Below are positions 5,913-38,545 of a stretch of DNA of 64,000 nt, piece after piece (the stretch's first letter is position 1; the number at the start of each line of letters is the position of its first letter). Source of the DNA: Salinibacterium sp. ZJ450. Its GTDB lineage: Bacteria > Actinomycetota > Actinomycetes > Actinomycetales > Microbacteriaceae. The translations under genes were made by a program, and so were the position numbers. The notes beneath the pieces were generated by a model. That model saw only the letters and a program-made list of their open reading frames with translations. It searched no databases and was not told where the DNA came from. The DNA lies in the NCBI RefSeq assembly GCF_011751885.2, contig NZ_CP061771.1, positions 930,001-994,000 of the forward strand, read 5' to 3'.

Positions 5913-7099
5913 AGCATTACCTCCGGGGCTTTCGTGTTGAGAAGTGAGGCACCGTAGTACTGGCCTACGGCGTCGGATGAGAGGAAGGCATGACCGAGAG
6001 CGGTCGTGACGTCCTGGAACAACTTGTGGAGCGGGTGGTCGATGAAGGCGGTGCGGCCGCTGGATACGCGCACCAAATGGTTGACCTGTTGGCCGACTTC
6101 CTGGCAGCTCTTGGTGATGTTCCAGCGGATGCGTGCGCGTTCCGGGCGTTCTAGGTAGACGTCTTCTTCCGCCGCCTGGGTGATGGTGTCGACCGCCTCG
6201 AACATCTTCTTCACTGCGGCGTCGTGAACCCATTCCGCGTTTGCCAGGTGCATCTGCATTAGCGGGTCGTCACTCAGTGAACCTCCCCAGTTCGATCGCC
6301 GCTCAGTTGTTTCGGCGGCCCATTGGTCGAGGAATCGACGGGTCAGGCCGAGCACCGGGGCGACCAGGACGAGGTTGAACATGACCGCCCAGGGCAGGCG
6401 GTACAGGGTCGATTCGTTCGTCTCGAAGCCTGGCGGTGGGCACGCCGGGTTGTATTCGTACTTCGGGTGCGAGAGGAAGCGGTGCTCTGGAACGAACTGG
6501 TCGTCGACCACGACGTCCTTGCTGCCGGTTCCCTTCAGGCCAGCCGTGTGCCAGGTGTCTTCGAGCTTGTACTGATCGCCGAGCAGCAGGATCGAGCCGT
6601 AGTTGGGAATCTCGAAGCCGCCTATGTCGAACATGCCGGCGTTGCCGCCGAGGATGACGGCCTGGCAGTGGTCGCCGCCGGACGAGAATGACCAGCGACC
6701 GTTGACTCGGTAGCCGCCTGGCGCCTTTTCCACTTTGCCGGTTGGGGCGTATGACGACGAGTTGGTGTGTGCCGGGTTGTCGCCCCACAGTTCCTGCTGC
6801 GTTTCTTCCGGGAAGAGGGCGATCTGCCAGGGGTGAGATCCCACTACGCCGGCGACCCAGCCCGCGGACGGTGCGTGTCGGGCGAGTTCGTAAACGTGGG
6901 TGAGCTGGTTGCGCAGGCTGATTTCGCCTCCGCCCCAGCGGGCCGGCTGCAGACCGCGCAGGATGCCGAGATCCTGCATCAGCTTCCACGTGTCCGAGGT
7001 GAGCATGCGATCAGTAGTCGCCTGCTGTTCGCCTCGCTCCAGCTCGGGTGCAAGTCGTCGTAATGCTGCGACGACATCTATTTCCGCGACAACGCTCAT
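5909..7099 (-). CDS. HsaA-like flavin-dependent aromatic hydroxylase, copy 1
   Basis: 396 residues, first gene of the leftward operon. The ILRGLQPARWGGGEISL segment, SAGWVAGVVGSHPWQIALF, SSSYAPTGKVEKAPGG and WHTAGLKGTGSKDVVVDD are those of group D flavin monooxygenases with the acyl-CoA dehydrogenase fold (HsaA, HpaH, C2-hydroxylases). Expected reaction: ortho-hydroxylation of a phenolic ring with FMNH2 or FADH2 and O2, giving the catechol for the dioxygenase encoded next. ATG at 7099, about 45 bases downstream of a perfect inverted repeat that may control it. Confidence 0.85.
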   Translation of the reverse strand: MSVVAEIDVVAALRRLAPELERGEQQATTDRMLTSDTWKLMQDLGILRGLQPARWGGGEISLRNQLTHVYELARHAPSAGWVAGVVGSHPWQIALFPEETQQELWGDNPAHTNSSSYAPTGKVEKAPGGYRVNGRWSFSSGGDHCQAVILGGNAGMFDIGGFEIPNYGSILLLGDQYKLEDTWHTAGLKGTGSKDVVVDDQFVPEHRFLSHPKYEYNPACPPPGFETNESTLYRLPWAVMFNLVLVAPVLGLTRRFLDQWAAETTERRSNWGGSLSDDPLMQMHLANAEWVHDAAVKKMFEAVDTITQAAEEDVYLERPERARIRWNITKSCQEVGQQVNHLVRVSSGRTAFIDHPLHKLFQDVTTALGHAFLSSDAVGQYYGASLLNTKAPEVML

Positions 7100-7143
7100 G
7101 CGTCGGGTCTCTCCTTCGTCATTGAAAGATGAAGTGCCAGCTA

Positions 7144-7171
7144 CTTCTCTGTAGTGGCCGCTACAGAGAAG
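7144..7171. promoter_or_regulatory. Perfect 11-bp inverted repeat between divergent genes (operator candidate)
   Basis: CTTCTCTGTAG (7144-7154), spacer TGGCCG, CTACAGAGAAG (7161-7171). It lies 45 bases upstream of the hydroxylase start (minus strand) and 165 bases upstream of the MFS start (plus strand). Arm length and spacing suit a dimeric repressor of TetR, GntR or IclR type. No regulator gene is adjacent, so its protein is unknown. A terminator is unlikely because both flanking genes are transcribed away from it. Confidence 0.65.
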
Positions 7172-7335
7172 ATAGCCGGAGGCGTGCGCATTAGCAAGCA
7201 GAAGAATTGCGAACGGGCCGGGCGGGCCGCAGCGCCCTGGCCTCGAGCCTGTGCCGGTGGGCTACCAACAGAGCGGGGTGGCCTTACCGTAGAGAGGTTG
7301 GCCATGGAGCCGACGAGGACGGGCGAAGGGGCAGC

Positions 7336-8529
7336 GTGCGAGGCGACGGTCAGAAACTGTGGACAGCGGCCTTCCTGCTCTCCATCATCGCCAACTTCTT
7401 CGTCGTCTCGATCTTGTACCTGTTGATGACAACGATGGCGTTGTATGCGGTCGAACGGTTCCAGGCGTCCGACAGCGTTGCCGGCCTCGCGGCAGGCTCA
7501 TTCATCGTCGGAGCGTTGGCCGGGCGAATCTTCGCGGGCAAGTTCCTTGATTTCGTCGGACGGCGCCGACTGTTCCTGGGCGCCCTGATCATCCTGGTGA
7601 TCGCCGCGCTGCTCTACATTCCGGTGAACAACTTGCTGCTGCTCCTCACGATTCGCACCATCCACGGCGTGGCATTCGGAGCGGCGAGCACGACGCTATC
7701 GGCATCGGTGATGGCGCTTATCCCGGCCGCTCGGCGCAGCGAGGGCACCGGCTACTTCGCGGTCTCGAACACCCTCGCGATCGCGATCGGGCCATTCGCC
7801 GCCGTGCTGCTGGTCGATGCCGCGACCTACGATGTGTTGTTCCTCGTCGCCGCCGGTTGTGCGCTTGCCGCGCTGATCGTCGGGCTGTTCGTGCGACTGC
7901 CTGAGCGGACGCCGACCGCCGACGAGCGCATGCACAAATGGCGGATGCGGTGGAGTGATGTGTTCGAACCGGGGGCGCTCGGCATCGCCAGTGTGGTGTT
8001 CGTGGCGGCCATCGCCTACTCCGGTGTGATGGCCTTCCTGAACTCGTACGCGCAGCAGAATGACATGGTCGTCGCGGCCAGCACGTTCTTCCTGATCTAT
8101 GCCGGTGTGGCGTTGCTGTCGCGGTTCTTCATCGGCCGCATCCAGGATCGGTACGGCGACAACGTCGTGGTCTATCCGATGCTGCTTGCCTTCGCGATCG
8201 GACTCGGACTGATCGCGATCGCCTCAAACGGAGTTGTGTTGCTGGTCGCGGGCGCCTTCCTCGGTATCGGCTTTGGTGGCCTGTTGCCGTGCGCACAGGC
8301 GATCGCGATCACGACGGCGCCGCTTCGTCGGGTGGGGGTGACGACATCCACCTATTTCATTGCCTTGGATGCCGGCACCGGCTTCGGGCCGCTGGTGCTC
8401 GGATCGCTCATTCCCGCGATCGGCTTCGAGGGCATGTATGCGGCCCTCGCCGTGCTGGTGCTCGCGTCGATGGTGCTCTATCACTTCGTGCACGGTGACA
8501 AGAAGTACCGGCAACGGTTCGCCGCGTAA
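7336..8529 (+). CDS. MFS transporter
   Basis: 397 residues from the GTG at 7336, preceded by a GAAGGGG ribosome-binding site; the open frame extends 5' but without membrane character. About 12 hydrophobic segments are present, with the MFS loop 2-3 motif (GRIFAGKFLDFVGRRRLF) near residue 65 and a central cytoplasmic loop around residues 185-205. It is probably an inner-membrane importer or exporter of small organic molecules. It diverges from the aromatic-degradation operon across the inverted repeat, so it may carry that pathway's substrate. Substrate and direction cannot be read from the sequence. Confidence 0.82.
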   Translation: MRGDGQKLWTAAFLLSIIANFFVVSILYLLMTTMALYAVERFQASDSVAGLAAGSFIVGALAGRIFAGKFLDFVGRRRLFLGALIILVIAALLYIPVNNLLLLLTIRTIHGVAFGAASTTLSASVMALIPAARRSEGTGYFAVSNTLAIAIGPFAAVLLVDAATYDVLFLVAAGCALAALIVGLFVRLPERTPTADERMHKWRMRWSDVFEPGALGIASVVFVAAIAYSGVMAFLNSYAQQNDMVVAASTFFLIYAGVALLSRFFIGRIQDRYGDNVVVYPMLLAFAIGLGLIAIASNGVVLLVAGAFLGIGFGGLLPCAQAIAITTAPLRRVGVTTSTYFIALDAGTGFGPLVLGSLIPAIGFEGMYAALAVLVLASMVLYHFVHGDKKYRQRFAA

Positions 8530-9723: not shown

Positions 9724-10854
9724 TTACTGCGCGGCGAAGAAGAACGTCTCGTCGCCGAATGAGTCGCTGAGAGCCCAGGTGCCCTGTTCCACGTCGGCGC
9801 TCGGCACCAGGATGACCACGTTGCCGGTGCCGCTGGCACCCGGGTAGAGGTCGTTGATGTCCGTCACGGCGGGTGAGGGAGCGACGACGCTCACGTCCGA
9901 TTTGGTGTGGGTGGTGCCGGCGGCCGAGACGAACTCGATGCTGACGTCGATCCACGGGGTGCCGGTGGTGTCACCGGTGTATGTGAAGGTGACCGGAACC
10001 ATCGCGTACTGGAAGCCCGCCGGGGGAGCCTCGTTGAACTGGTTGGCCGCGGCGACCGCGTCGTTGGCGTTCAGCGTGGGTGCGCCGAGGGTGATGTCGT
10101 AGGCCATGCCGTCAAATCCGGTGAGCTCCACGACCGAGCCAAGCGGTGCCGGGTTGGTGCGAGTGCCGATTGCATCGCTGGCCGCTGGCGACTCTTCCTC
10201 GCCTGCGGGCTCCTCAGCGAGCGGGGCCTCGCCGGTGATCTCCTGGTTCACTTCGGAGAAGAAATCGGGTTCCACCGACGCGATGAGCGCGACCGTGTAG
10301 ACGACCGACATGACGATCGAGAGCACGAGAGCGATACCGGACACGATGGTACCGATGGCCGCAATCCGCTTCAAGCGGTTCTTGAGCACCAGCGCGATGA
10401 TGCCGAGCACCAGACCGACGAACGCGATGAAGCCGGCCACGTAAGTGGCGACCGGAATGAGGGCCATCACGAAGGCCACAGCACCGACGATGAGAGCAGC
10501 GAGACCAAGACCGTTCTTGCCTTTCGGGGCGACAGCGGTCTGCGCGTACGCCGGAGCCTCACCGAAACCGGTAGCAGCGGGCTGCGCGTAGCTGGGCACG
10601 GCCGACTGGTCGGGCGCGACCGGCGGTGCCGGCGGTGCGTAGCTCGGAGTGGCGGCGGGAGCGGCGGGCGCTCCATTGGGCGCGGCCGAGGGGGCAGATG
10701 CGGGAGCCGACGGCGTACCAGCGGGCGTGACCGACGGCGCACCTGCGGGAGCAGCCGGGGCACCAAAGGGCGCGGCCGGAGCGGTCGGCGGAACCGGCGG
10801 GGTCGGCTGTGGGTCGGTGTCTGCTGTGGACGGAGGATTGTGCGTGTCGGTCAT
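9724..10854 (-). CDS. Membrane protein with Pro/Ala-rich N-terminus, DUF4190-like segments and DUF4352-like exported domain
   Basis: 376 residues. Residues 1-110 are low-complexity Pro/Ala/Gly, like the disordered cytoplasmic arms of actinobacterial membrane proteins. About three hydrophobic segments follow (115-135, 137-157, 165-192). An acidic linker of about 35 residues leads to an outward domain of about 150 residues (NPAPLGSVVEL, FQYAMVPVTFTYTG, GNVVILVPSADVEQGTW) resembling DUF4352/telokin-like folds. Function unknown; it probably sits in the membrane with the C-terminal domain outside. No ribosome-binding site is evident before the ATG. Confidence 0.7.
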   Translation of the reverse strand: MTDTHNPPSTADTDPQPTPPVPPTAPAAPFGAPAAPAGAPSVTPAGTPSAPASAPSAAPNGAPAAPAATPSYAPPAPPVAPDQSAVPSYAQPAATGFGEAPAYAQTAVAPKGKNGLGLAALIVGAVAFVMALIPVATYVAGFIAFVGLVLGIIALVLKNRLKRIAAIGTIVSGIALVLSIVMSVVYTVALIASVEPDFFSEVNQEITGEAPLAEEPAGEEESPAASDAIGTRTNPAPLGSVVELTGFDGMAYDITLGAPTLNANDAVAAANQFNEAPPAGFQYAMVPVTFTYTGDTTGTPWIDVSIEFVSAAGTTHTKSDVSVVAPSPAVTDINDLYPGASGTGNVVILVPSADVEQGTWALSDSFGDETFFFAAQ

Positions 10855-10979
10855 ATGAGGAATTCTATCGAATCACGGCCGACGTTCAGGTTGGGCGGAT
10901 AGTGGAGCCCTGCCCATGGTGCTTCCACCCGCAGATGTGGTAGCGCCCGGATCGCGCCCGCACCCGGCGCAGACCCACC

Positions 10980-11816
10980 CTAATCGCGCAGGAACGGCTC
11001 CTGCCGGCACCCCTCCTCGTCGACGATCACCACCGTCGACTCCGGCACCTCGACGAACGCGCCCTCGAGGTCGCTGAGCGGCTCGGAGACGATCACCCGC
11101 GACCGCTCACCGTGTGCCTTGAGTCTGTCGACATCCGGAAAATTCTGTTGCAGCGTCCGCATGTCCTCGGAGTGGAACAGGGTGCGCGACTGGTGCTCGG
11201 TGGAATAGCGGAACGCCCAGATCGTCGCGCCATCCGACACCGCGATCGAACCCTGCATCGGGAACTCCACGCCCAGCCGCCGTCCGATCTCTTCGACCCG
11301 ACGGATGCTGCGTGCCATCCCGCCGACCGGATCCTCGGACAGCCCGAGCGTCAGCGCCAGGTAGAACAGCGCCTCGGAGTCGGTGGTGCCGAGTACTTTG
11401 GGGAACAGGTCGGGATCGATCGCGAGCATCACGTCGCGTCGTATCCGCGCCCACTCGCGCAGCCCGCCGTTGTGCATGAACATCCAGTTCTCATGGCGGA
11501 ACGGATGACAGTTGGTGTCCTGTATCGGCGGGCCACTGGCCGCTCGCACGTGCGCGAAGAACAGCGGGCTTTCGACCGCGTGGGTGATCTCCCGCAGGTT
11601 CTCGTCGTACCAGGCGGGTTCGATGCTCTTGAACAGCCACGGCCTGCTGCGCTCGTGTCCATCGGTCACGTACCAGCCGAGCCCGAAGCCGTCGCCGTTC
11701 ACGGTCTCCTTGCCGAGCGGCGAGTTGAGCGACTGCGCCACCAGCGAGTGCGGGGTGTCGAGCACCACCGTCGCAGGGGTGAGCGGTTCGCCGGAGTAGG
11801 CCAGCCAGCGGCACAT
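10980..11816 (-). CDS. Class II glutamine amidotransferase (EgtC/YafJ-like)
   Basis: 278 residues starting MCRWLAYSGEPL. After Met removal Cys2 is the N-terminal nucleophile, which fixes the ATG at 11816. NGDGFGLGWY (about 40-49), FAHVRAASG and MHNGGL are the class II amidotransferase glutamine-pocket motifs. Such stand-alone Ntn hydrolases cleave gamma-glutamyl amide bonds; EgtC of ergothioneine synthesis is one member, but no egt genes are nearby, so the substrate is open. It ends in a gap before the DUF4190 gene. Confidence 0.85.
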   Translation of the reverse strand: MCRWLAYSGEPLTPATVVLDTPHSLVAQSLNSPLGKETVNGDGFGLGWYVTDGHERSRPWLFKSIEPAWYDENLREITHAVESPLFFAHVRAASGPPIQDTNCHPFRHENWMFMHNGGLREWARIRRDVMLAIDPDLFPKVLGTTDSEALFYLALTLGLSEDPVGGMARSIRRVEEIGRRLGVEFPMQGSIAVSDGATIWAFRYSTEHQSRTLFHSEDMRTLQQNFPDVDRLKAHGERSRVIVSEPLSDLEGAFVEVPESTVVIVDEEGCRQEPFLRD

Positions 11817-21547: not shown

Positions 21548-23101
21548 TCATCCGCCATCAGCATTGTCACCACCACCCTCAGCTCGGACCGGCTCATCGG
21601 ACGCTGGCGGCGGACCTGACGCGGTGAGCCTTCGCAAGTCCCGCAGGGCAGGACTCCTCGACGACAGCGCGATCGGCGTCTGGTCAGGATCTCGATCCGT
21701 GGGCGGGATGAGCATGTAATGCCCGGAGTCGTTCCGAATGATGCGCCAGCCGTTGTTGTGCAGCAGCATGTGATGGAAACGACAGAGCAGTATCCCGTCC
21801 GCGACATCGGTCTTCCCATGATCTCGGACCCATTCGTCGATGTGATGAGCCTCCGTGAACCCGGGCGAACAATCGCAACCCGGCCACCCACAGCCACCAT
21901 CTCTGGCAGCCAGCGCGATGCGCTGTGCTCGGCTGAAGAGGCGCTGCTCACGTCCCAGATTCAGCGGTTGACCATAGGAGTCGAAGCCGATATCGATGGT
22001 GCCGGCGGTGCAGGCGATTCGTTCGACTGTGGCGATGGAAACGGGGAACTCGGCTCCTTCAAGGTGGCCTGCTCCCTGACGTTGATCAAGATTCGGACTA
22101 GCAACGAGTACCCGTACGGCAGGCATCCGCGAGCCGACGATGCGTTTGGTCTCGGTTGTTCCTGCCGTCGCGGCGACGCGCAGCAGGTCCACCATCGCAT
22201 CGTGGAGATACTGATCGGTGGTGCGCGGGTCATCGATCACCGATTGCGCCCAGGCCTTGTCCGCCTCGTTGACGAAACGTGGCCCGCCTCGCCGAGGCGA
22301 CGTGATGCGACTGCAAATGTCGTCGATCAGGGCTGCCGTCTCGATGTCGGGATCGATGATGTATCGGGGCAGCCCGTTCGGGCCCTTCACCCGCCGGAAT
22401 GCGCGGGCCTCATGCAGCCGTGCTTCCCGTTCTGCGACGAGTTGGTCGTCAAGCTCGTCTCGAAGCTGTCGGGCGAGCAGCATGGCACGGTCGGCATCGA
22501 CTGGTCCGCCCGCGTCGTGCGCGGAATGCAGTATTCCCAGAAGGGTCGTCACCACGTTAGCCAGTGCCTCGGCGCTCACCTGCTCGCTGGGCTCGCCGAC
22601 CCCGCGGGCCACCGAATCCAGCACGTCGACGGACAGCCAACCGGCTGTTACCGCGGCGCTCGCCGGAGCCAGCCACGGTCGACTAGGCGCCAGCGAAGGA
22701 TCGTCCAGCCCGAGCCCGCCCTGGTCGGAATCCCGGTCCCGCTCCCGCAGGATGCCGCCGGCCCGGACCTGTCGGCCCGCGTCACGAAAGGTGGTGCCGG
22801 TGATGTGCTGGATGAACTTCTCCGGCGAACGGAACCCCTGACGCTGCGCGAGGCCGCTGTACCCGTTCTCGCGCGTGGATCGGGCCGCGACTTCCCCGGC
22901 GACAACGGCGCAGCGGGTGTCCAAGGCCCGGCGAATCTCGGCAAGATCGCGGTTGGCCGCGACCAAAGTGTCGTCATCGAGTTCGCCAAAGAGAGACGAC
23001 TGCGCTGGCAGTCGCTCCACCGCCGCGAGGGCGGAAGCCATCGCGGCGGTGAGCTGATCGGAGAACTCGGACATGGTTACATTCTGCAATTCTTCGAACA
23101 T
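21548..23101 (-). CDS. DUF222 / HNH endonuclease domain protein (13E12 repeat family)
   Basis: 517 residues. A long DUF222 domain (about 20-370) is followed by an HNH motif: CGWPGCDCSPGFTEAHHIDEW and DGILLCRFHHMLLHNNGW, with the zinc cysteines and catalytic histidines intact. These proteins are numerous in Actinobacteria and are often carried in several copies; their cellular role is unproven. Two ATGs (23101 and 23074) are possible and neither has a convincing RBS. Convergent with DUF2231, 6 bases apart. Confidence 0.88.
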   Translation of the reverse strand: MFEELQNVTMSEFSDQLTAAMASALAAVERLPAQSSLFGELDDDTLVAANRDLAEIRRALDTRCAVVAGEVAARSTRENGYSGLAQRQGFRSPEKFIQHITGTTFRDAGRQVRAGGILRERDRDSDQGGLGLDDPSLAPSRPWLAPASAAVTAGWLSVDVLDSVARGVGEPSEQVSAEALANVVTTLLGILHSAHDAGGPVDADRAMLLARQLRDELDDQLVAEREARLHEARAFRRVKGPNGLPRYIIDPDIETAALIDDICSRITSPRRGGPRFVNEADKAWAQSVIDDPRTTDQYLHDAMVDLLRVAATAGTTETKRIVGSRMPAVRVLVASPNLDQRQGAGHLEGAEFPVSIATVERIACTAGTIDIGFDSYGQPLNLGREQRLFSRAQRIALAARDGGCGWPGCDCSPGFTEAHHIDEWVRDHGKTDVADGILLCRFHHMLLHNNGWRIIRNDSGHYMLIPPTDRDPDQTPIALSSRSPALRDLRRLTASGPPPASDEPVRAEGGGDNADGG

Positions 23102-27104: not shown

Positions 27105-27521
27105 TTACTCGACCGCGTCGACCCGGCACTCGATGCCGGGCGCACCCAGAATCCGGCGGTCCCGGGTTAGCAGGGTGGCGCCGGTCTGTTCCGCCAGGGC
27201 CACATAGGCGGCGTCGTAGCTGCTGAGGTTCTCGCCGAGTTGCCAGACGCGGGCCGCGACCGTGTCCCAGGGCCACAGCTCGATGCTCAGGTCGCCGAAG
27301 CCGTCGAATGCGAGGGAGGCTTCGGCCGGCGAGAGCAGGCCGGCGTTCCGGCGGCGGCGCAGCACGTTGGCGACCTCGAACGGCAGTACCGCGGGGGCGA
27401 GCATGGTTGCCGTGGCCAGTCGTCGGCCGATCGAGTCCGCGGCAGGGTTCGGGTCGATCAACACCGAGAGGACCACGGATGCATCGACCACCAGTAGTTC
27501 GCTACGTGCGGTCGGCATCAA
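27105..27521 (-). CDS. PIN-domain toxin (VapC/FitB-like)
   Basis: 138 residues. Acidic catalytic residues of the PIN ribonuclease fold: VVDASVVLSVL (Asp about 13), FEVANVLRR (Glu about 49), SYDAAYVALAE (Asp about 102) and TRDRRI (Asp about 120). It overlaps the antitoxin gene by 20 bases, the usual toxin-antitoxin arrangement. Expected to cleave RNA when not bound by the antitoxin. Confidence 0.87.
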   Translation of the reverse strand: MMPTARSELLVVDASVVLSVLIDPNPAADSIGRRLATATMLAPAVLPFEVANVLRRRRNAGLLSPAEASLAFDGFGDLSIELWPWDTVAARVWQLGENLSSYDAAYVALAEQTGATLLTRDRRILGAPGIECRVDAVE

Positions 27522-29660: not shown

Positions 29661-30641
29661 ATGACGGCTACCACCAGCACCAACACCGTCAATACAGTCC
29701 TCGGCCCCATTCCCGCTGATGAACTCGGCGTGGTCGCGGTGCACGAAGCCCTGCTCTCCGTGATCCCGGGCGCCCAGTACGCCCCGGACATCAGCATGGA
29801 CCGCGCAGAGATCTTCGAGATCCTGGCCGAGAAGCTGACCGACTTCCGCGACAACGGCGGTAAGACGATCGTCGACAGCACCGGCATGTTCCACGGCCGC
29901 GACGTGAACCTGTACGAAGCGCTCTCCCGCTCGACCGGCGTGCACATCGTCGCCTCGACGGGCATGGGCCCCGAGGAGATGCTCGGCGGCTACTTCCTCA
30001 CCCCGCAGACCAACCCGCCGACGCCATGGCCCGCCGAGAAGTTCGCCGACCTCTTCGCCAAGGAGGTCACCGAGGGCATGGTGGTTCCGCGGGTCGAGCG
30101 ACGCGGTGCCGCGGGCATGGTGACCACCACGGCCACCCGCGACGGCATGACGCCGACCGATGAGAGCCTGTTCCGTGGCGCAGCGCGAACCGCGCTCAGC
30201 ACCGGCATCCCGGTGTCCATCCGATACGGTGCCGACGCGCTGCACGATCTCGACATCGTCCTTGACGAGACCCTCCCGGCGAACCGGGTGCTCGTCGGCG
30301 GCCTCGACCGCAAGGACGCCGCGGCCGGTGCCGCCCTCGAGGTGGCCCGCCGCGGAGCATTCGTCGGGCTCGACCACGTCGGTCTCGACGATGACGAGGA
30401 CTACCTGACCGACCGCGAGCGTGCCGACCTGGTGCTGGAACTGGTCAAGGCCGGCCACGGTCACCAGGTCCTGCTCTCGAGCAATGCGATCGGCGTCGCC
30501 AAGGGACAGCCCGACTATGACCTGCCGTTCAGCCACGTGGTGTCGACGTTCGTGCCCTTCCTCAAGTCGCTCGGGCTCAGCGTAGAGGATGCCCAGCGCA
30601 TCCTGGTCGACAACCCGCGCGACCTGCTGACGGTGCGTTGA
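29661..30641 (+). CDS. Phosphotriesterase-like protein lacking the metal ligands
   Basis: 326 residues from ATG 29661 (RBS AAAGG). Clear paralogue of the next gene (NTVLG-I-A-ELG start, GVHIVA-TG, DFRDNGGKTIVD). However the metal-site residues have changed: HEH has become HEA, the carboxylated Lys is Thr (GMVTTTATR), THLAID is SIRYGAD, GHADDG is GGLDRK and SADAN is SSNAI. Only one of six ligands remains. It is full-length with an intact frame, so it is probably a pseudoenzyme, a partner subunit or an enzyme with another chemistry, rather than a decaying gene. First gene of the operon. Confidence 0.8.
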   Translation: MTATTSTNTVNTVLGPIPADELGVVAVHEALLSVIPGAQYAPDISMDRAEIFEILAEKLTDFRDNGGKTIVDSTGMFHGRDVNLYEALSRSTGVHIVASTGMGPEEMLGGYFLTPQTNPPTPWPAEKFADLFAKEVTEGMVVPRVERRGAAGMVTTTATRDGMTPTDESLFRGAARTALSTGIPVSIRYGADALHDLDIVLDETLPANRVLVGGLDRKDAAAGAALEVARRGAFVGLDHVGLDDDEDYLTDRERADLVLELVKAGHGHQVLLSSNAIGVAKGQPDYDLPFSHVVSTFVPFLKSLGLSVEDAQRILVDNPRDLLTVR

Positions 30642-30729
30642 CCGCGCGTCAAGCGACCGCTCGGCGCGCGACATCCGGCCAATCACACACGACTGATCAA
30701 ACAGCCATCGACTCTCTAAGGTGACGACG

Positions 30730-31683
30730 TTGTCAAAGGTAAACACAGTGCTGGGAACCATCTCAGCCGAAGAATTGGGACTCGTGGCCATCCACGAGCA
30801 CATCGGGTACGGCATGCCCGGCAGTGAGCTGGACAGCAAGTGGTGGAAGACGCCGGAACAGGCGTATGAGGAGACGGTGCCGAAGCTGCGCGCGTTCCAC
30901 GAGTACGGCGGCGGCACCTTCGTCGACGCCACCGGCATCTGCAACGGTCGCGACATCGACTACTACAAGTCCCTGTCGAAGAAGACCGGCGTGCACATCG
31001 TGGCCTGCACCGGCTTCGTCGGCGGCGACACCGCCCTGGCGCACTTCGCCCGGGCGAGCGTGGACTACCTGACCAAGGTCTTCGTCCACGAGATCACGGT
31101 CGGGATCGGCGACACCGGCAGCCGCGCTGGCGTCATCAAGGTCGGCGTGAGCCGCGGCGGACGGATGACGGAACTCGACAAGCGCATCTACCGGGCCGCC
31201 GCCCGTGCCTCGGTCACCACCGGGGTGCCGATCCTCACCCACCTGGCGATCGACCCGCAGCCCGCTGTCGACATCTTCCGGGAGGAAGGCCTGCCGCTCG
31301 ACCGCGTGCTCTTCGGCCACGCCGATGACGGACTGAACGCGCCGATCACCCCGCACGACTACATCGCCGAGCAGGGCGGCCGCATCGGCTTCGACACCTT
31401 CGGCTACGAGACCGAGCTCGAGGATCCACCGTTCTGGGCCCGACCGCGCAAGGAGCGTCTGGACCACTTCGTCAGCCTCGTGCACAAGGGATACCTCGAC
31501 CTGCTCCTGGTCTCCGCCGACGCGAACTGCAGCCCGCTCGGCTGGCCGGGCGTCAAGGGCCACACGGTGAACTACATCTTCGAAAAGATGATCCCCGACT
31601 TCCGCGAAGCCGGTCTCGACGACGCCTCCATCAAGAAGATCCTCGAAGAGAACCCGGCCGACTTCCTGTCGATCAAGCTCTGA
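30730..31683 (+). CDS. Phosphotriesterase-family metal-dependent hydrolase (amidohydrolase superfamily)
   Basis: 317 residues from TTG 30730, preferred because AAGGTGA lies five bases before it; a GTG at 30721 is the alternative. All binuclear metal ligands are present: HEH (22-24), bridging Lys in GVIKVG, His in ILTHLAID, His in LFGHADDG and Asp in VSADANCSP. Family members hydrolyse lactones, phosphotriesters or amides. With its metal-less paralogue and four further catabolic genes, a lactonase or amidase step is the likeliest role (inference). Confidence 0.85.
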   Translation: MSKVNTVLGTISAEELGLVAIHEHIGYGMPGSELDSKWWKTPEQAYEETVPKLRAFHEYGGGTFVDATGICNGRDIDYYKSLSKKTGVHIVACTGFVGGDTALAHFARASVDYLTKVFVHEITVGIGDTGSRAGVIKVGVSRGGRMTELDKRIYRAAARASVTTGVPILTHLAIDPQPAVDIFREEGLPLDRVLFGHADDGLNAPITPHDYIAEQGGRIGFDTFGYETELEDPPFWARPRKERLDHFVSLVHKGYLDLLLVSADANCSPLGWPGVKGHTVNYIFEKMIPDFREAGLDDASIKKILEENPADFLSIKL

Positions 31684-31756
31684 CCCTCAATACCCACTAC
31701 CACCACACATCCTCTTGCCCGGGGCCCACCCCTGGACACAAGAAAGCGAGCGAACA

Positions 31757-32878
31757 ATGCAGTCCTCGGACCTCCACAACCTGAACATCGCCATCATCGG
31801 CGCGGGCTACGGCGGCGCTGCCGCAGCCAAGGCCCTCAGCCTCCTCGGCGCCACCGTCAACGTGTACGAGCAGGCACCCTTCTCCGGTGAGGTCGGCGCC
31901 GGCATCGGCCTGCGCCCGGCGACCATGCAGCGGTTCCGCCAGTGGGGGATGTTCGACGCGATCGCGAAGGTGACCTCGCCGAGTGACTACTTCGAGATCC
32001 TCACGGCGACCGGTGAGCCGATCATGAAGGATGCCTGGCCGGAGTCCGGTGACCTCAAGCAGACCCACCTCGTCCACCGCCGGGACTTCATCGACGCCCT
32101 GCTCGGTGTGCTTCCCGAAGGCATGGTGCACTTCAACCACCGGCTCGAGAAGGTCGAGGACAAGGGTGACCGTGCTGTTCTCACCTTCTCCGACGGCAAG
32201 ACCGTCGAAGCCGATCTGGTCATCGGCGCCGACGGCATCAAGTCGGCGGTGCGCGAGCAGCTCTTCAGCAAGAAGGGCCCGGTGTTCTCGGGCGAGCACG
32301 CCTACCGCGCGGTGATCTCGGCCGACGCCGCCCACGGCATGGTCGTCGACGACAACCTCCGGATGTACATCGGCCACGGCACCAAGATTTACCTGCTGCC
32401 GCTGCGCCACCGCAACCAGGTGTCCTTCGACATCACCGTGCTGAACCCGGACAGCACCTGGACGCCGACCGTGACCATCGACGACATGCTGAAGACCGTC
32501 GAAGGCTTCGACGAGCGGCTCGTGGCAATCACCCGCGAACTCGACCTGTCGACGGTGAGCATCAAGGCGGTGTACGACATCGACCCGATCGATGTGTGGC
32601 ACTCGGACTCCGTCGCCCTCATCGGTGATGCGGCCCACTCGATGCTGCACCACCAGGGCCAGGGAGCGAACTCGGCCATCGAGGACGCCGGCGCGCTCGC
32701 CGACGCCCTCGCCGAGGCCGACTCGGTCAAGGAGGCGCTCGCGCTGTACCAGGCCACCCGTAAGCCGGTGACCGACGAGCTGCAGCGCATCTCGCGTCAG
32801 GGCTGGAGCGAGGGAGAACTCGACGACGTCTTCCCCGGACAGAAGCCCGCGGCCCAGTCCGCGGCCTCGGCTCAGTAG
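31757..32878 (+). CDS. Group A FAD-dependent monooxygenase (salicylate/3-hydroxybenzoate hydroxylase-like)
   Basis: 373 residues from ATG 31757. FAD motif IAIIGAGYGGAAAAKAL (about 10-26), DG motif ADLVIGADGIKSAVR (about 158) and GD motif VALIGDAAHSMLHHQGQGAN (about 290). These single-component NAD(P)H enzymes hydroxylate activated aromatic or heteroaromatic rings. Third gene of the operon. The C-terminal 20 residues are Ala/Ser/Gln-rich. The substrate is unknown. Confidence 0.88.
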   Translation: MQSSDLHNLNIAIIGAGYGGAAAAKALSLLGATVNVYEQAPFSGEVGAGIGLRPATMQRFRQWGMFDAIAKVTSPSDYFEILTATGEPIMKDAWPESGDLKQTHLVHRRDFIDALLGVLPEGMVHFNHRLEKVEDKGDRAVLTFSDGKTVEADLVIGADGIKSAVREQLFSKKGPVFSGEHAYRAVISADAAHGMVVDDNLRMYIGHGTKIYLLPLRHRNQVSFDITVLNPDSTWTPTVTIDDMLKTVEGFDERLVAITRELDLSTVSIKAVYDIDPIDVWHSDSVALIGDAAHSMLHHQGQGANSAIEDAGALADALAEADSVKEALALYQATRKPVTDELQRISRQGWSEGELDDVFPGQKPAAQSAASAQ

Positions 32879-32895: not shown

Positions 32896-33840
32896 ATGCC
32901 GATTCATCCTGAAATTGCCAAGATCCTGAGCACCCTTCCTGCGCCAGACGGTTCGCCGCTCAACCCTGCGGCCATGCGCGCGGGGGAGGCCGCGCACGTC
33001 CCGCCGCTTGAGGGCCGGCTGCCGCTGTACGCCGTCGAGGATGTCGCGGCGTCCACGACATCCGGAACCGTGCCCGTGCGCATCTACACCCCGGCCGACG
33101 CGAAGTCCTACGGTCTGCTGGTGTACTTCCACGGCGGCGCGTTCTTCCTCGGCAGCCTCGACACCCACGATCACGTTGCGCGGGCGCTGGCCAAGGAGAC
33201 CGGCTACAAGGTGATCTCGGTCGGCTACCGGCTGGCCCCCGAGGCGGCCTTCCCGGCCGGCCTCGACGACTGCTACGGGGTGGTCCGCTGGGCCGCCGAG
33301 CAGGGCGAGCGCCTCGGCTGGGACGGCCAGAACCTGGCCATCGCCGGCGACAGCTCGGGCGGCACGTTCGTGGCCGCCGTCGTAGCGAAGGCCCACGACG
33401 ACGGCTTCGACCGCATCACCCAGCAGGTGCTGTTCTACCCGTCCCTCGACCTGGACTTCGACGTCGACCGCTACCCCTCGCTGCGCGAGAACGCCGAGGG
33501 GTACGGCCTCGAAACGGCCGGACTGAAGCCGTTCAACTCCTTCTATCTCAATAGTGGGGCGGATGCCGCGGACCCCCTGGTTTCCCCGATCAAGCGTGAG
33601 GACCTCACCGGCCTGCCGCCGGCGCTGATCATCACCGCCGAGTACGACCCGCTGCGCGACGAGGGCGAGCTCTACGGCCAGCGCCTGCAGGTCGCCGGCG
33701 TGCCCGCGACGGTCAGTCGCTACCCGGGCGCCAATCACGGGTTCGTGCAGAACTTCTCCTGGATCCCGGAGTTCTACGAGGCATTCCGCGAGACCGCTGA
33801 CTTCCTGAATCAACCCAGCCTCAGCCAGGACCGCGCGTAA
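32896..33840 (+). CDS. HSL-family alpha/beta hydrolase (esterase/lipase)
   Basis: 314 residues. HGGAFFLGS (about 79-87) is the HSL oxyanion motif, GDSSGG (Ser about 155) the nucleophile elbow, EYDPLRDEGELYG (Asp about 250) and GANHGFVQ (His about 280) complete the triad. Ester hydrolysis in the cytosol. Its stop overlaps the next start (TAATG), so it is translationally coupled. Confidence 0.9.
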   Translation: MPIHPEIAKILSTLPAPDGSPLNPAAMRAGEAAHVPPLEGRLPLYAVEDVAASTTSGTVPVRIYTPADAKSYGLLVYFHGGAFFLGSLDTHDHVARALAKETGYKVISVGYRLAPEAAFPAGLDDCYGVVRWAAEQGERLGWDGQNLAIAGDSSGGTFVAAVVAKAHDDGFDRITQQVLFYPSLDLDFDVDRYPSLRENAEGYGLETAGLKPFNSFYLNSGADAADPLVSPIKREDLTGLPPALIITAEYDPLRDEGELYGQRLQVAGVPATVSRYPGANHGFVQNFSWIPEFYEAFRETADFLNQPSLSQDRA

Positions 33841-34805
33841 TGACGCAGCACGTCGACATCCATCCACTCGTATCGCCGTGGGGCAGGTTCGGGCTCTACA
33901 GCTTCTTCATCGACGCGCCCGAGCCGGCGATCGTGGACACCGGCATCGCTTCCTCGCCGGCCGAGGGCATGGCGCCCGCGCTGGAGGCGCTCGGGCGGCG
34001 CATCGAGGACGTCCGCTGGATCCTGCTGACCCATGGTCACATCGACCACCTCGGCGGGGCGCACGCCCTGTGGGAGCTCACCGGCCGACGCGCGAAGGTC
34101 GTCATTCACGAAGCGGATGCCGCGATGCTGCGCTCCCGCCGCGCCCACGTCGACGAGTACCTGACCGGTCGCGCGCAATATCTGCACGACCCGGACGGCG
34201 AGGCGAAGCAGACGGCCGCCGGGAACGCGGTCATCTCCGGGGAGATGGAACCCACCGTTCTGGTCACCGGCGGCGAGACCCTCTCGCTCGGCGGTGACGT
34301 CACCGTGTCGGTGCACTCAATCCCGGGGCACACCCCAGGCGCGGTCGCCTATGTTGTCGACGGGCAGAACGACGTGTTCGTCGGCGATGCGGTGCAAGTG
34401 CACGGCGCGGCCAATGGCTTCCCCGGCTACGAGGACCCGGCCGGTTACCGCGCGAGCCTCGAATACCTGCGTGACGAGATCCGTCCGCAACACCTTTACC
34501 TCGGGCATCCCTACCGCCGCGGCGACGGCACGCCCTACGGCGTCGAACTCGACGCGGACGAGGCCCGGGAAGCGCTCCAGGAGAGCCTCGACCTCGAAGC
34601 GCGGATCAGCGACGTCGCCAACCGCTACCTGCAGGACGGCGTGCAGCAGACCGATTCGGTGTACTCCCCGTTCGCCCGGGTCGCCGACGAGCTCGGCTAC
34701 GACAAAGACCCCACCCTGGAGCCGTCGCCGTTCTTCACGACGCTGCACGGCTACGCGACGCAGTTCGCCCAGAACACTCGCAATGAAAAAGGAGCAACAC
34801 GCTGA
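33840..34805 (+). CDS. MBL-fold metallo-hydrolase
   Basis: 321 residues. THGHIDHLGG (about 61-70) is the HxHxDH motif; His in IPGHTPG, Asp in VFVGDAVQ and a final LGHP complete the metal site, as in glyoxalase II, lactonase and related enzymes. The C-terminal 90 residues form a helical extension. Possible thioesterase or lactonase in the operon's pathway. Overlaps the CocE gene by TGATG. Confidence 0.85.
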   Translation: MTQHVDIHPLVSPWGRFGLYSFFIDAPEPAIVDTGIASSPAEGMAPALEALGRRIEDVRWILLTHGHIDHLGGAHALWELTGRRAKVVIHEADAAMLRSRRAHVDEYLTGRAQYLHDPDGEAKQTAAGNAVISGEMEPTVLVTGGETLSLGGDVTVSVHSIPGHTPGAVAYVVDGQNDVFVGDAVQVHGAANGFPGYEDPAGYRASLEYLRDEIRPQHLYLGHPYRRGDGTPYGVELDADEAREALQESLDLEARISDVANRYLQDGVQQTDSVYSPFARVADELGYDKDPTLEPSPFFTTLHGYATQFAQNTRNEKGATR

Positions 34806-36520
34806 TGGTTGACGTGACGACGTGGGATGCCGGTGGGCAGAAAATCTCCATCCTCAAGGACCTCCGCGTGCCGATGCGCGACGGCGTCGAGCTCGCCGCC
34901 GACGCCTATCAGGGAGTGGACGACAAGCCGCGCCCGGCACTCGTCGCGCTGAGCCCCTACGGCAAGGAACTGCAGGCGCTGGCTCTGACGACCCCGCCGC
35001 AGCGGCGCCCCAGCCCGATGTGGGACGGCTGCATCGAGGCGGGCGACATCGCCCGCATCGTGGCGGAGGACTACGTCCACGTCATCGGTGACCTGCGTGG
35101 GTCCGGGGCATCCGACGGAGAGCACATCGGCAACTACAACGCCGGCGGCGTCTCGCTCGGCCAGGATGCCTACGACTTCATCGAGTGGGTCGCCGCGCAG
35201 CCGTGGTGCGACGGCAACGTGGGCATGGTCGGCATCTCCTACTTCGGCTCCATGCAGGTGCTGGCGGCCGCCGAGCGCCCGCCGAGCCTGAAGGCGATCT
35301 TCGTCAGCGGCGGCCACTACGACTTCTACGAGACCACCTACCACGGTGGTGTTATGTGGTTCATGCCGCGCGCCGCCCGCGAGGGTCGCGGCGGCGACTC
35401 CGGCTGGGCGTTCACCGACAACGTCAAGTCCCGGATGATCGAGAAGTACTCGCCCGAGGAACTCAAAGCGCTCGTCGCCAAACGGCTGCAGGATCCGGAT
35501 GTCGCGGCCTGGCCGAACCTGGTGCATGTGCTGAACTACCCGAAGAACCACGAGGCCTGGTTCGACATCGTGATGAACGATCTCGACGGCGACTGGTACG
35601 AGGAGCGCAACCCGATCACGCTGGCGCCGAACATCGACATCCCGGTCTGGCTGCAGCTCGACCAGGGCCGCGGCTGGACGCTGGATGGCACCATCGAGTT
35701 GTTCGACTCGTTGAAGGGTCCGAAGAAGCTGACCGTCGGTCCGTACCCGCCGATGCAGTCGCGCCCCTTCGTCGAGGAGCACGACAAGATGTTCCGCTGG
35801 TACGACTACTGGATCAAGGGCATCGACAACGGCGTAATGGACGAGCCGGCCGTCAGCGTGTTCGTTGAGGGCTCGCGCGAGATCGTGACCGCCGACCAGT
35901 GGCCGCCTAAGGAGATCGAGTACAAGTCGCTCTACCTGCGCCCACGGCACAAGCTCTCCACCGAGCCCGAGCTGATGGGTGCGGAGTACGCCGCCCCGGA
36001 CGGTTTCTACCAGGCGCCGCTGACGGTGACCGACAAGGTGGAGATCATCAACTGGTCCACCGCGCCGTTCGAGGAAGACACCGAGCTGATCGGCACCGGT
36101 GCCGCGCACATCTTCGCGGAGATCGACCAGCCAGACACGAACTTCATCATGCGGCTGTGGGATGTCGCGCCGACCGGCAAGCGGCAGCTGATCACAACCG
36201 GCTACCTCAAGGCCTCGCACCGCGAGCTCGACGAGCGCACCACCGAGGGCAACCCGTTCCACCCGCACACCCGCACCGAGCCGGTGGAGCCGGGCAAGAT
36301 CGAGGAGTACGTGCTGCGGCTCTACCCGTTCGCGAACACCTTCAAGCCGGGTCACCGCCTGGTGGCGGAGCTGTCGAACGCCGAACCGCTGGTCGACGAG
36401 CACAACTCGCTGCTGCCCCCGGACGCCTTCCACCTGCCAGTGGGCCGCCCGGTCACGCACAAGATCTACCGGGACGCCGCCCACCAGTCCCGGCTGGTGC
36501 TCCCGTTCACTGTGCGCTGA
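34805..36520 (+). CDS. CocE/NonD family hydrolase (X-Pro dipeptidyl-peptidase-like)
   Basis: 571 residues. N-terminal LRVPMRDGVELAADAY, VIGDLRGSGASDGE and nucleophile elbow VGMVGISYFGSMQ (Ser about 142) belong to the S15/CocE alpha/beta domain. A C-terminal jelly-roll domain (about 400-560) ends with FKPGHRLVAELSN. The family cleaves esters and amides such as cocaine and glutaryl-7-ACA. Last gene of the operon, followed by a terminator. No signal peptide. Confidence 0.88.
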   Translation: MVDVTTWDAGGQKISILKDLRVPMRDGVELAADAYQGVDDKPRPALVALSPYGKELQALALTTPPQRRPSPMWDGCIEAGDIARIVAEDYVHVIGDLRGSGASDGEHIGNYNAGGVSLGQDAYDFIEWVAAQPWCDGNVGMVGISYFGSMQVLAAAERPPSLKAIFVSGGHYDFYETTYHGGVMWFMPRAAREGRGGDSGWAFTDNVKSRMIEKYSPEELKALVAKRLQDPDVAAWPNLVHVLNYPKNHEAWFDIVMNDLDGDWYEERNPITLAPNIDIPVWLQLDQGRGWTLDGTIELFDSLKGPKKLTVGPYPPMQSRPFVEEHDKMFRWYDYWIKGIDNGVMDEPAVSVFVEGSREIVTADQWPPKEIEYKSLYLRPRHKLSTEPELMGAEYAAPDGFYQAPLTVTDKVEIINWSTAPFEEDTELIGTGAAHIFAEIDQPDTNFIMRLWDVAPTGKRQLITTGYLKASHRELDERTTEGNPFHPHTRTEPVEPGKIEEYVLRLYPFANTFKPGHRLVAELSNAEPLVDEHNSLLPPDAFHLPVGRPVTHKIYRDAAHQSRLVLPFTVR

Positions 36521-36710: not shown

Positions 36711-36847
36711 CGAATGGCGGCGGTGCGATCTTGCGTGAGTGACGCAAGCCGAGCGCGATCTGGACCACCCGCAACCGCGAAGGCTGACGAACGGAGGGAA
36801 GTCCATTGCGCCCGCCCCCGCCACGGTCGCATCATTGCCCTGAGACC

Positions 36848-38545
36848 ATGCCCACCCCACTCGGCGTCGGGCGCGCCGCTCTCGCCGTAGGCGACTGGGC
36901 GACCGCCCGCGACGCTTTCACCGAAGCAACCTACGACGACGACTCGGCGGACGCCCTCGACGGGCTCGCCCGCGCCGCGTGGTGGCTGGGCGACGTCGAG
37001 GCCGCCATCGACTACCGCATCCGCGCCCACAACGCGTTCAGACAGGAAGGCCGATTCGCGGATGCCGCCACCAGCGCCGTCTGGATCTCACGGCAGCTGC
37101 GACAGCTGTTCCGCAACGCGGCAGCCGCCGACGGCTGGCTCGCCCGCGCCGAAACCCTCGCCAGCGACGACATCCCGGGGCACGGCAACGACGGCAGCAC
37201 GCTGGGCTGGATTGCGCTCGCCAGATCAGAGGCGACACCGGATGCCGCGGAAGCAGCCGCATCGGCGCGCGACGCTCTCGACCGGGCGCGCGCACACTCC
37301 GACGCCGACCTCGAGATCGAGGCGCTCGCCCGCTTGGGTCTGCTCACCATCGCCACCGGTGAGGTCGACACCGGGGTGCACCAGTTGGACGAGGCGATGG
37401 CCGCGGCCAGTGCCGGCGCGGCGTCCGATCTCAGCAGCGTCGCCACCGCCTACTGCACGCTGCTCGAAGCAGCCGAGGTGCTCGGCGACGACGCCCGGTT
37501 CGCGCAGTGGACCGCCGCGATCACCGCGTTCGCCAGCGGCCCCGGGTTCGGCCCGCTCACCGCACCCGACGCGCCCGCCGCGTACGGACCGCTCTCGTCG
37601 TTCTGCGGCGCCTGCTGCGGAGGCCTCTACCTAGTCACTGGCAGGCTGGCCGACGCCGAAACAGAACTGGTGGCCGCGATCGCCGAGTTGGAGTTGCGCG
37701 GCATGGCCTCGCGGTGCGTGCACCCGGTCACTCGGCTCGCGGAACTGCGCGTCCTGCAGGGCAGGCTCGATGAGGCGCGGGTCCTGCTGGAACGGTACGA
37801 AGACCTGCCCGAGGCTGTGCGTCCGCTGGCGGTGCTCGACCTCGCCGCGGGCTCGCCCGCGATCGCGGTGGCCCGGCTCACCCGCCGGCTCGACGAACTC
37901 GGCGGCCTCGAGGTCGCCGCCCTGCCGTTGCTGACCGTGCTGGTCGACGCGCAGCTTGCCGCCGCTGACACCGCCGCCGCGGAGAACACGGCAGGACGAG
38001 TGGCGGATGTTGCGGAACGCACGCGCAGCGATCGGCACCGTGCCGAGGCACTGTTTGCGAGCGGCAAGGTGGCCGCGGCCGTCGGGGATCCCAACGCCGA
38101 GACCCCGCTGCGCGACGCGGCGCGCCTGTTCAGCGAAGCGGGGCTCGCCCTGCAGGCCTGCCGAGCCCGGCTGGCACTGGCCCGGGCGCTCGTTGCGGAC
38201 GGCGACGTCCCGGTCGCGATCTCCGAGGCACGGGCCGCGCTCGCCGCGTTCGACCGGCTGGGTGCGCGATCAGATGCGGGTGCGACATCCGCATTTCTGC
38301 GTGAGCTGGGAGTGCGCGGCCGCACCGGCCCGAAGAATCTTGACCTGCTGAGCCAGCGCGAACGGGAGGTGCTCGGCCTTGTCGCGCAGGGCCTCACGAA
38401 CGCCGAGATCGCCGAGCGGCTGTTCATCAGCGTGAAGACCGCCGGTCACCACGTCAGCAGCATCCTGACGAAACTGGGCGTCCGCAGCCGCACCGAGGCG
38501 GCCGCGTTCGCCGCGGTGCACGCCGAGATGCGGGCGTCGGAATAG
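36848..38545 (+). CDS. LuxR-family regulator with TPR-like sensor region, copy 1
   Basis: 565 residues from ATG 36848. A TTG at 36806, five bases after GGAGGGAA, is a credible alternative start adding 14 residues. Residues 1-490 are Ala-rich helical repeats of TPR/SARP type (GRAALAVGDWATARDAF and similar). The C-terminus is a LuxR helix-turn-helix: LLSQREREVLGLVAQGLTNA, EIAERLFISVKTAGHHVSSI, LTKLGVRSRTEA. No ATPase motif is visible, unlike MalT/LAL regulators. Paired with a SnoaL-like gene downstream; the pair recurs at 59419-61646. Confidence 0.85.
   Translation: MPTPLGVGRAALAVGDWATARDAFTEATYDDDSADALDGLARAAWWLGDVEAAIDYRIRAHNAFRQEGRFADAATSAVWISRQLRQLFRNAAAADGWLARAETLASDDIPGHGNDGSTLGWIALARSEATPDAAEAAASARDALDRARAHSDADLEIEALARLGLLTIATGEVDTGVHQLDEAMAAASAGAASDLSSVATAYCTLLEAAEVLGDDARFAQWTAAITAFASGPGFGPLTAPDAPAAYGPLSSFCGACCGGLYLVTGRLADAETELVAAIAELELRGMASRCVHPVTRLAELRVLQGRLDEARVLLERYEDLPEAVRPLAVLDLAAGSPAIAVARLTRRLDELGGLEVAALPLLTVLVDAQLAAADTAAAENTAGRVADVAERTRSDRHRAEALFASGKVAAAVGDPNAETPLRDAARLFSEAGLALQACRARLALARALVADGDVPVAISEARAALAAFDRLGARSDAGATSAFLRELGVRGRTGPKNLDLLSQREREVLGLVAQGLTNAEIAERLFISVKTAGHHVSSILTKLGVRSRTEAAAFAAVHAEMRASE

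Follow-up and report, generated by a model that had tools for sequence, protein, structure and literature searches.

A phosphotriesterase-family protein that has lost five of six metal ligands is conserved beside an intact paralogue and is a candidate pseudoenzyme subunit

Results

Genes and features at the locus

The window, that is the whole stretch of 64,000 nucleotides of the Salinibacterium sp. ZJ450 chromosome that was analysed, carries two consecutive genes of the phosphotriesterase (PTE) family, here named P1 and P2, which lie on the same strand and are separated by 79 bases. They are followed by four genes that accompany the pair in nearly all of the related loci compared, and by a regulator. 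Counts refer to the best 80 of the 115 P1 relatives described below.

29661-30641, + strand: P1 (PTEa), phosphotriesterase-family protein without the metal ligands, 326 aa (PF02126, 115.5 bits)
30721-31683, + strand: P2 (PTEb), phosphotriesterase-family metallohydrolase with the full ligand set, 320 aa (PF02126, 169 bits)
31715-32878, + strand: FAD-dependent aromatic monooxygenase (FMO; PF01494), adjoining P2 in 80/80 loci (best 80 of 115)
32896-33840, + strand: alpha/beta hydrolase, hormone-sensitive-lipase-like (ABH; PF07859), present in 80/80 loci (best 80 of 115)
33840-34805, + strand: metallo-beta-lactamase-fold hydrolase (MBL; PF00753), present in 79/80 loci (best 80 of 115)
34805-36520, + strand: CocE/NonD-family hydrolase (TIGR00976, 236.4 bits), present in 79/80 loci (best 80 of 115)
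36806-38545, + strand: LuxR-type regulator that follows the operon in this genome (PF00196)

In a profile search, PF02126 covered nearly the full length of both P1 and P2; P1 was matched over residues 19-323, its 115.5 bits standing against a cut-off of 22.4 bits. The two proteins are 32% identical in a pairwise alignment of 330 aligned columns. The AF2 model of P1, built on a 28-row alignment, reached a pLDDT of 81.7 and a pTM of 0.85, and that of P2 a pLDDT of 82.6. Superposition of the P1 model on the PTE/OpdA structures gave a Z of 38 and an rmsd of 2.3-2.4 over about 300 residues (specifically, rmsd 2.4 and 303 aligned residues for OpdA), as is proper to a (beta/alpha)8 barrel. In conclusion, profile matches and predicted folds identify both P1 and P2 as phosphotriesterase-family (PF02126) barrels. 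The genome holds three PF02126 genes, namely P1, P2 and one located elsewhere, which has a complete, Glu-bridged site.

Other parts of the window contain a PIN-domain protein, a putative VapC-type toxin (27105-27521, - strand; PF01850, 44.5 bits), and a DUF222-domain protein of 517 aa (21548-23101, - strand; PF02720, 59.4 bits).

Metal ligands of P1 and P2

Alignment of P2 to P1 and to solved PTE-family chains located all six metal ligands of P2, at H25, H27, K140, H174, H200 and D267. This is the set of a catalytic phosphotriesterase or lactonase, in which an HxH motif, a bridging Lys or Glu, two single His and an Asp hold two metals. P1, in contrast, lacks this set: its sole ligand is the first His, H28, the counterpart of P2 H25, and at the remaining five positions H27 of P2 corresponds to A30 of P1, K140 to T155, H174 to R188, H200 to G214 and D267 to N275.

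The same positions were then read across 95 P1-type rows (the window included, the frameshifted copy at L012 left out), 94 P2-type rows and 24 reference PF02126 proteins. Among the P1-type rows, the second His, the Lys, the third His and the fourth His were each found in 0/95, and the Asp in a single row (L088). The second-His position is occupied by A or S in all 95 rows, the third-His position by R in 94 and by S in one, the bridging-Lys position by A, T, V or I, the fourth-His position by G, D, A or N, and the Asp position by N, S, G, R or the single D, while the first-His position reads H in 93 rows and S in two. These two rows are L102, from a Caballeronia plasmid, and L107, and in both of them all six ligands are gone; Ser at the Arg position occurs in L010 and in L012.

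On the P2 side, the four His and the Lys were each present in 94/94 rows and the Asp in 93/94, the one exception being a gap in a broken draft copy. The 24 references, from which L115 (no usable match) and L132 (a fragment) were left out, retain the four His and the Asp in 24/24, with a bridging Lys in 17 and a bridging Glu in 7. The Glu-bridged references are L111, L112, L118, L120, L123, L133 and L138, one of which is the additional PTE that the window's genome encodes besides P1 and P2.

In conclusion, judged from these alignments, the five-ligand difference is neither chance nor misalignment, and the ligand loss in the P1 type is old and fixed. By ligand counts and predicted fold, P1 presents the first trait of a pseudoenzyme, catalytic residues lost within a retained fold.

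Constraint on P1

P1 is open in one frame at 94/95 loci. The sole exception is L012 (G270), where the N-terminal part lies in another frame, through either a real change or an assembly error. Over 15 chosen close pairs, dN/dS ranged from 0.070 to 0.325 for P1 (median 0.139) and from 0.031 to 0.147 for P2 (median 0.068). This range indicates that P1 is constrained, with purifying selection approximately twofold less tight than on P2, and retention under such selection (dN/dS 0.07-0.33 in the 15 chosen pairs) is the second trait of a pseudoenzyme that P1 presents. In addition, 92 P1 positions are identical in at least 94 of the 95 rows, and 40 of these near-invariant positions are private to P1, their residues occurring in less than 30% of the P2 rows and of the references.

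A first-pass annotation of this DNA had described the loss of five of six ligands in P1 and had ascribed it to coordinated loss and not to decay. The count proved exact when aligned residue by residue, and within the 95 rows no close relative retains any ligand beyond the first His and the one Asp. The second part holds as well, given the open frames, the low dN/dS and the absence of the ligands throughout the rows; homologues are not scattered with frameshifts, 94/95 loci being open and one (L012) shifted, and the metal-less form stands beside the intact one at every locus examined.

Distribution and origin of the pair

A scan of genome contigs returned 115 P1 relatives, the best 80 of which, with identities of 72-87%, were kept; these best 80 of 115 loci belong to Actinomycetota by record annotation. 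P1-type genes are carried by at least 10 among 398 genomes of the family and by at least 2 among 396 genomes of a phylum sample, the window's own genome counted. Both carrier counts are lower bounds, drawn from the best 80 of 115 relatives and from at most five candidates scored per genome. Among 72,556 plasmid records, a single match exceeded 50% identity (56.9%, Caballeronia insecticola plasmid p2). No P1 relative was found in the viral contigs, and the phage collection yielded only distant PTE-family matches, below 60% identity.

A P2-type gene lies beside P1 in 80/80 kept loci (best 80 of 115), in 10/10 carrier genomes of the family search, in the one additional carrier genome that the phylum search brought up and on the Caballeronia plasmid p2. 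Conversely, 5/5 P2 matches found in other genomes by the order search adjoin P1. A P2-type gene was found at 95/95 P1-type loci, an obligate co-occurrence that recalls the arrangement of the pseudo-dihydroorotase (pDHO) discussed below. The gap between the two genes runs from -13 to 54 bases, with a median of 39, at 95 loci other than the window. Three P2 copies, at L050, L064 and L076, are broken in draft assemblies. No natural fusion of P1 and P2 was found among the loci; an apparent 678-codon shared frame in G006 was rejected on account of in-frame stops between the two genes in the DNA.

In a tree of 68 chosen rows (22 P1, 22 P2 and 24 references), the P1 and P2 types form one clade each (SH-aLRT 100), and the two clades are sisters (97) with the references outside, a placement for which the program warns of long stems where P1 and P2 join.

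The surrounding operon

The best solved relatives of the monooxygenase adjoining P2 are 6-hydroxynicotinate 3-monooxygenase, tropone 2-monooxygenase and salicylate hydroxylase, and its solved relatives include decarboxylating hydroxylases. Its identity to the window's monooxygenase falls into two classes, below 66% in 14/80 loci and at or above this value in 66/80, and it looks as if the monooxygenase had been replaced in some operons with the P1-P2 pair kept. The MBL-fold gene is inverted in 12/79 loci (L020, L024, L027, L028, L030, L033, L036, L040, L049, L054, L090 and L093). The LuxR-type regulator of the window found no match in the 80 loci (best 80 of 115) at E 1e-20, and is therefore placed outside the conserved module.

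Upstream of P1, a P450 of one cluster is present in 43/80 loci and a ferredoxin reductase of one cluster in 45/80, and other loci carry transporters of the MFS type or regulators of the TetR or LysR type; representatives of these genes were checked by Pfam. On the Caballeronia plasmid, the row reads TetR, P450, ferredoxin, reductase, P1, P2, monooxygenase, alpha/beta hydrolase, MBL and CocE. This record (NC_021295.1, L102) thus holds the whole actinobacterial operon, together with the P450 system, in a betaproteobacterial host, which suggests that the complete pathway was transferred to plasmid p2.

In the window's genome, the P450 and the reductase are found elsewhere on the chromosome, at C1:1420500-1436500 (L145; P450 at 6920-8527, - strand, and reductase at 10011-11186, + strand), accompanied by a LysR-type regulator and MFS transporters. 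This P450 is CYP199-like, its solved relatives being the CYP199A family, and is 54% identical to that of Caballeronia. Since the P450, the reductase and their companions lie approximately 0.47 Mb from P1, the module is split in this genome.

No ring-cleavage gene was found in the conserved operon. Judging by the solved relatives of the P450 and of the monooxygenase, the operon's substrate may be an acid with an aromatic or heteroaromatic ring. An organophosphate, considered for the name of the family, was set aside for want of support.

Coupled divergence of P1 and P2

Distance matrices of the six operon genes were compared over 73 of 81 loci, the 8 loci without six complete genes being left out. 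The P1-P2 pair showed a correlation of r 0.84 and a partial r of 0.69, the highest of the 15 pairs. The next-highest partial r was 0.52 (FMO-ABH), and the other adjacent gene pairs gave -0.05 (P2-FMO), 0.14 (ABH-MBL) and 0.02 (MBL-CocE). P1-P2 ranked first in 6/6 subsets (all loci, dereplicated, without Micrococcaceae, without Streptomycetaceae, Micrococcaceae only, and without L102), and had the top partial correlation in only 258/500 subsamples of 60% of the dereplicated set. Linkage adds to this distance correlation.

Covariation between the two proteins was read from 92 joined rows, without L012 (frameshift) and without L050, L064 and L076 (broken P2 in drafts). The top inter-protein pair was P42 of P1 with V120 of P2 (z 9.4), the combination being P with V, or F/Y with Q/H, in 89/92 rows. 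The two residues align with P70 and F149 of OpdA; P42 falls within the interface segment, and F149 is presumably an interface residue of PTE. On the joint tree each column changes three times, and because only one well-supported independent pair remains, we treat this covariation as a suggestive pointer, to which no significance is attached.

Conserved loops private to P1

Two segments of P1 were delimited by their alignment to the solved enzymes.

29763-29804, + strand: P1 loop (residues 35-48), the counterpart of OpdA 62-76 and thus within segment 60-79 of the PTE dimer interface; residues 36-48 pair with OpdA 63-76
29967-30104, + strand: P1-specific invariant region, residues 103-148, lengthened by ~10-11 residues following OpdA S137 and by a further insert

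In the first segment, the counterpart of P1 Y40 in 4g2d, which we take to be SisLac, is residue 34, at position 35 of the chain. In SisLac, residue 34 is described as the pivot of the homodimer (PMC3468530), and the canonical PTE dimer interface as consisting of segments 60-79 and 301-313 in a report that also describes a monomeric, inactive, one-zinc form of PTE (PMC10619419). In the second segment, G103-P104, at the start of the invariant loop, align with SsoPox 97-98, residues described as lining the groove between the monomers (PMC7084321). Residues 103-148 contain 26 of the 40 invariant residues private to P1.

The stretches modelled with low confidence in P1 are residues 35-44, 77-79, 104-118 and 141-146. 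Their mean conservation is 0.909, against 0.817 for the rest of the protein, and 18 of 317 circular shifts gave a value as high; the 35-44 stretch taken alone (0.787) is not above the average of 0.817. In the predicted structure, low model confidence therefore coincides, weakly, with conserved P1 loops. In conclusion, the presence in P1 of conserved, private loops that align with the inter-subunit side speaks for a role in binding.

Discussion

The data presented above depict a PTE-family barrel stripped of most of its metal site and kept next to a sister protein with an intact one. Because the pair has been kept together across many soil bacteria, P1 would appear to serve as a functional partner subunit, and its gene not to be on the way to loss. 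Specifically, we consider it probable that P1, as a pseudoenzyme subunit, associates with P2 and stabilises or shapes the active site of P2, within a catabolic operon. This reading of the pair is built on the homology and predicted fold of the two proteins, the loss of ligands in P1, the sister clades, the co-occurrence of the genes and the purifying selection.

How the pair may have arisen and may work can be outlined as follows. A single phosphotriesterase-like gene would have been duplicated, giving P1 and P2, and P1 would have lost the binuclear metal centre and been retained as a non-catalytic subunit. Active sites of the PTE family are described as lying near the dimer interface (PMC3468530). 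P1, presumably without metal and activity, would most likely replace one protomer in a P1-P2 heterodimer, where it may stabilise P2, shape or gate the active site of P2, or hold the substrate. Arg188, which hardly varies, may occupy the emptied site and hold the barrel together without metal. P2 would use its metals to hydrolyse an intermediate, which is probably an ester, a lactone or an amide. Together, P1 and P2 would serve a catabolic operon comprising the flavin monooxygenase, the alpha/beta hydrolase, the MBL-fold hydrolase and the CocE-type hydrolase, which a CYP199-like P450, a ferredoxin reductase, an MFS transporter and a TetR regulator adjoin in many genomes, and whose pathway substrate would be aromatic.

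We also put forward, tentatively and as a prospect that falls somewhat short of even, a more specific proposal: P1 and P2 may form an obligate hetero-oligomeric hydrolase, in which the metal-free paralogue builds half of the inter-subunit groove and sets the specificity of the single remaining site. This would be a half-of-sites arrangement made permanent by duplication, at work in an undescribed oxidative-hydrolytic catabolic pathway of many Actinomycetota and of a Burkholderiales plasmid.

The first-pass annotation had left the choice between a pseudoenzyme subunit and new chemistry. According to the latter, P1 would be an enzyme or a binding protein acting without a binuclear centre on a pathway intermediate, by means of the invariant Arg188, His28 and Glu29 and of the private Q116, R144, E146, R147, R148, D216 and R217. 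The constancy of these residues speaks for it, with Arg in place of the third His in 94/95 rows, His28 in 93/95 and Glu29 in 95/95, as do the many polar residues among the 92 positions invariant in at least 94/95 rows and the fact that metal-free hydrolysis exists in the amidohydrolase superfamily (LigI). LigI-like chemistry, however, requires the barrel Asp, which is gone in 94/95 rows of P1. Moreover, Arg188 has become Ser in L010 and L012, and His28 in L102 and L107, although the operon is the same; the remaining lost-ligand positions drift among small residues, and the strongest private conservation is found in loops, away from the old metal site. Because the replacements at four of the five lost ligands vary, and because even the Arg and the kept His become Ser in a few lineages, the pseudoenzyme subunit is the better supported of the two, and new chemistry appears unlikely.

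A retained fold with catalysis lost, in a protein whose gene is invariably the first hydrolase gene of the catabolic operon, would also suit a ligand-binding barrel that senses the substrate and reports it to another pathway protein, independently of P2. Such a sensor or regulator is nevertheless improbable, since P1 has no signalling domain, TetR, LysR or GntR regulators already lie near many loci, and the distances of P1 track those of P2 and not those of the other operon genes. The co-occurrence data do not differ between a subunit and a partner that P2 needs only during maturation, as a chaperone or for metal loading, and a 1:1 gene pairing fits a stable and a transient complex alike; but the private conservation lies at interface-type loops, as for a standing dimer, and we know of no PTE-family enzyme that needs a paralogous chaperone, so that we hold this role to be very improbable. 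Lastly, a neutral remnant, a duplicate in the course of decay that continues to be transcribed as part of the operon, might account for the roughly twofold faster change of P1 (median dN/dS 0.139 vs 0.068, 15 pairs) and for the one frameshifted copy in 95, but is hardly credible in view of 94/95 open frames, 92 near-invariant positions, dN/dS far below 1 and conservation from Actinomycetota to a betaproteobacterial plasmid.

If P1 is indeed a pseudoenzyme subunit, an ancient pair of a dead and a live protomer would make the reason for PTE dimers directly testable, and likewise the shaping of one protomer's active site by the other, in a family that serves both as a model for enzyme evolution and as a bioremediation tool. 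The operon, for its part, marks a catabolic pathway so far undescribed. Annotation pipelines label P1 a 'phosphotriesterase', as in the Caballeronia record, a name that is probably wrong as to activity.

By profile and predicted fold, P1 and P2 belong to the family of PTE/OpdA, SsoPox and SisLac (PF02126); P2 shares every ligand with these enzymes, whereas P1 lacks five of the six and has private inserts. QsdA of Rhodococcus is a PTE-family lactonase encoded in an actinobacterial catabolic operon, and to our knowledge it has no metal-less twin. The PTE-family enzymes treated in the reports cited above are described as homodimers (PMC3468530, PMC10619419). No description of a phosphotriesterase paired with a metal-less paralogue was found in the open literature searched, which is no proof of novelty, subscription papers and preprints lying outside it; nothing pertinent to the operon's gene set was found there either.

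The closest precedent that we can offer, by analogy, is pDHO of the class A2 aspartate transcarbamoylase (ATCase) of Pseudomonas, described as inactive, devoid of the zinc ligands and required for the activity of its partner (PMC7053772). Like P1, pDHO as described there is an amidohydrolase-type barrel that has no zinc ligands and is encoded together with its partner. The two differ in that pDHO supports an unrelated enzyme, the ATCase, whereas the partner of P1 would be its own active paralogue, P2.
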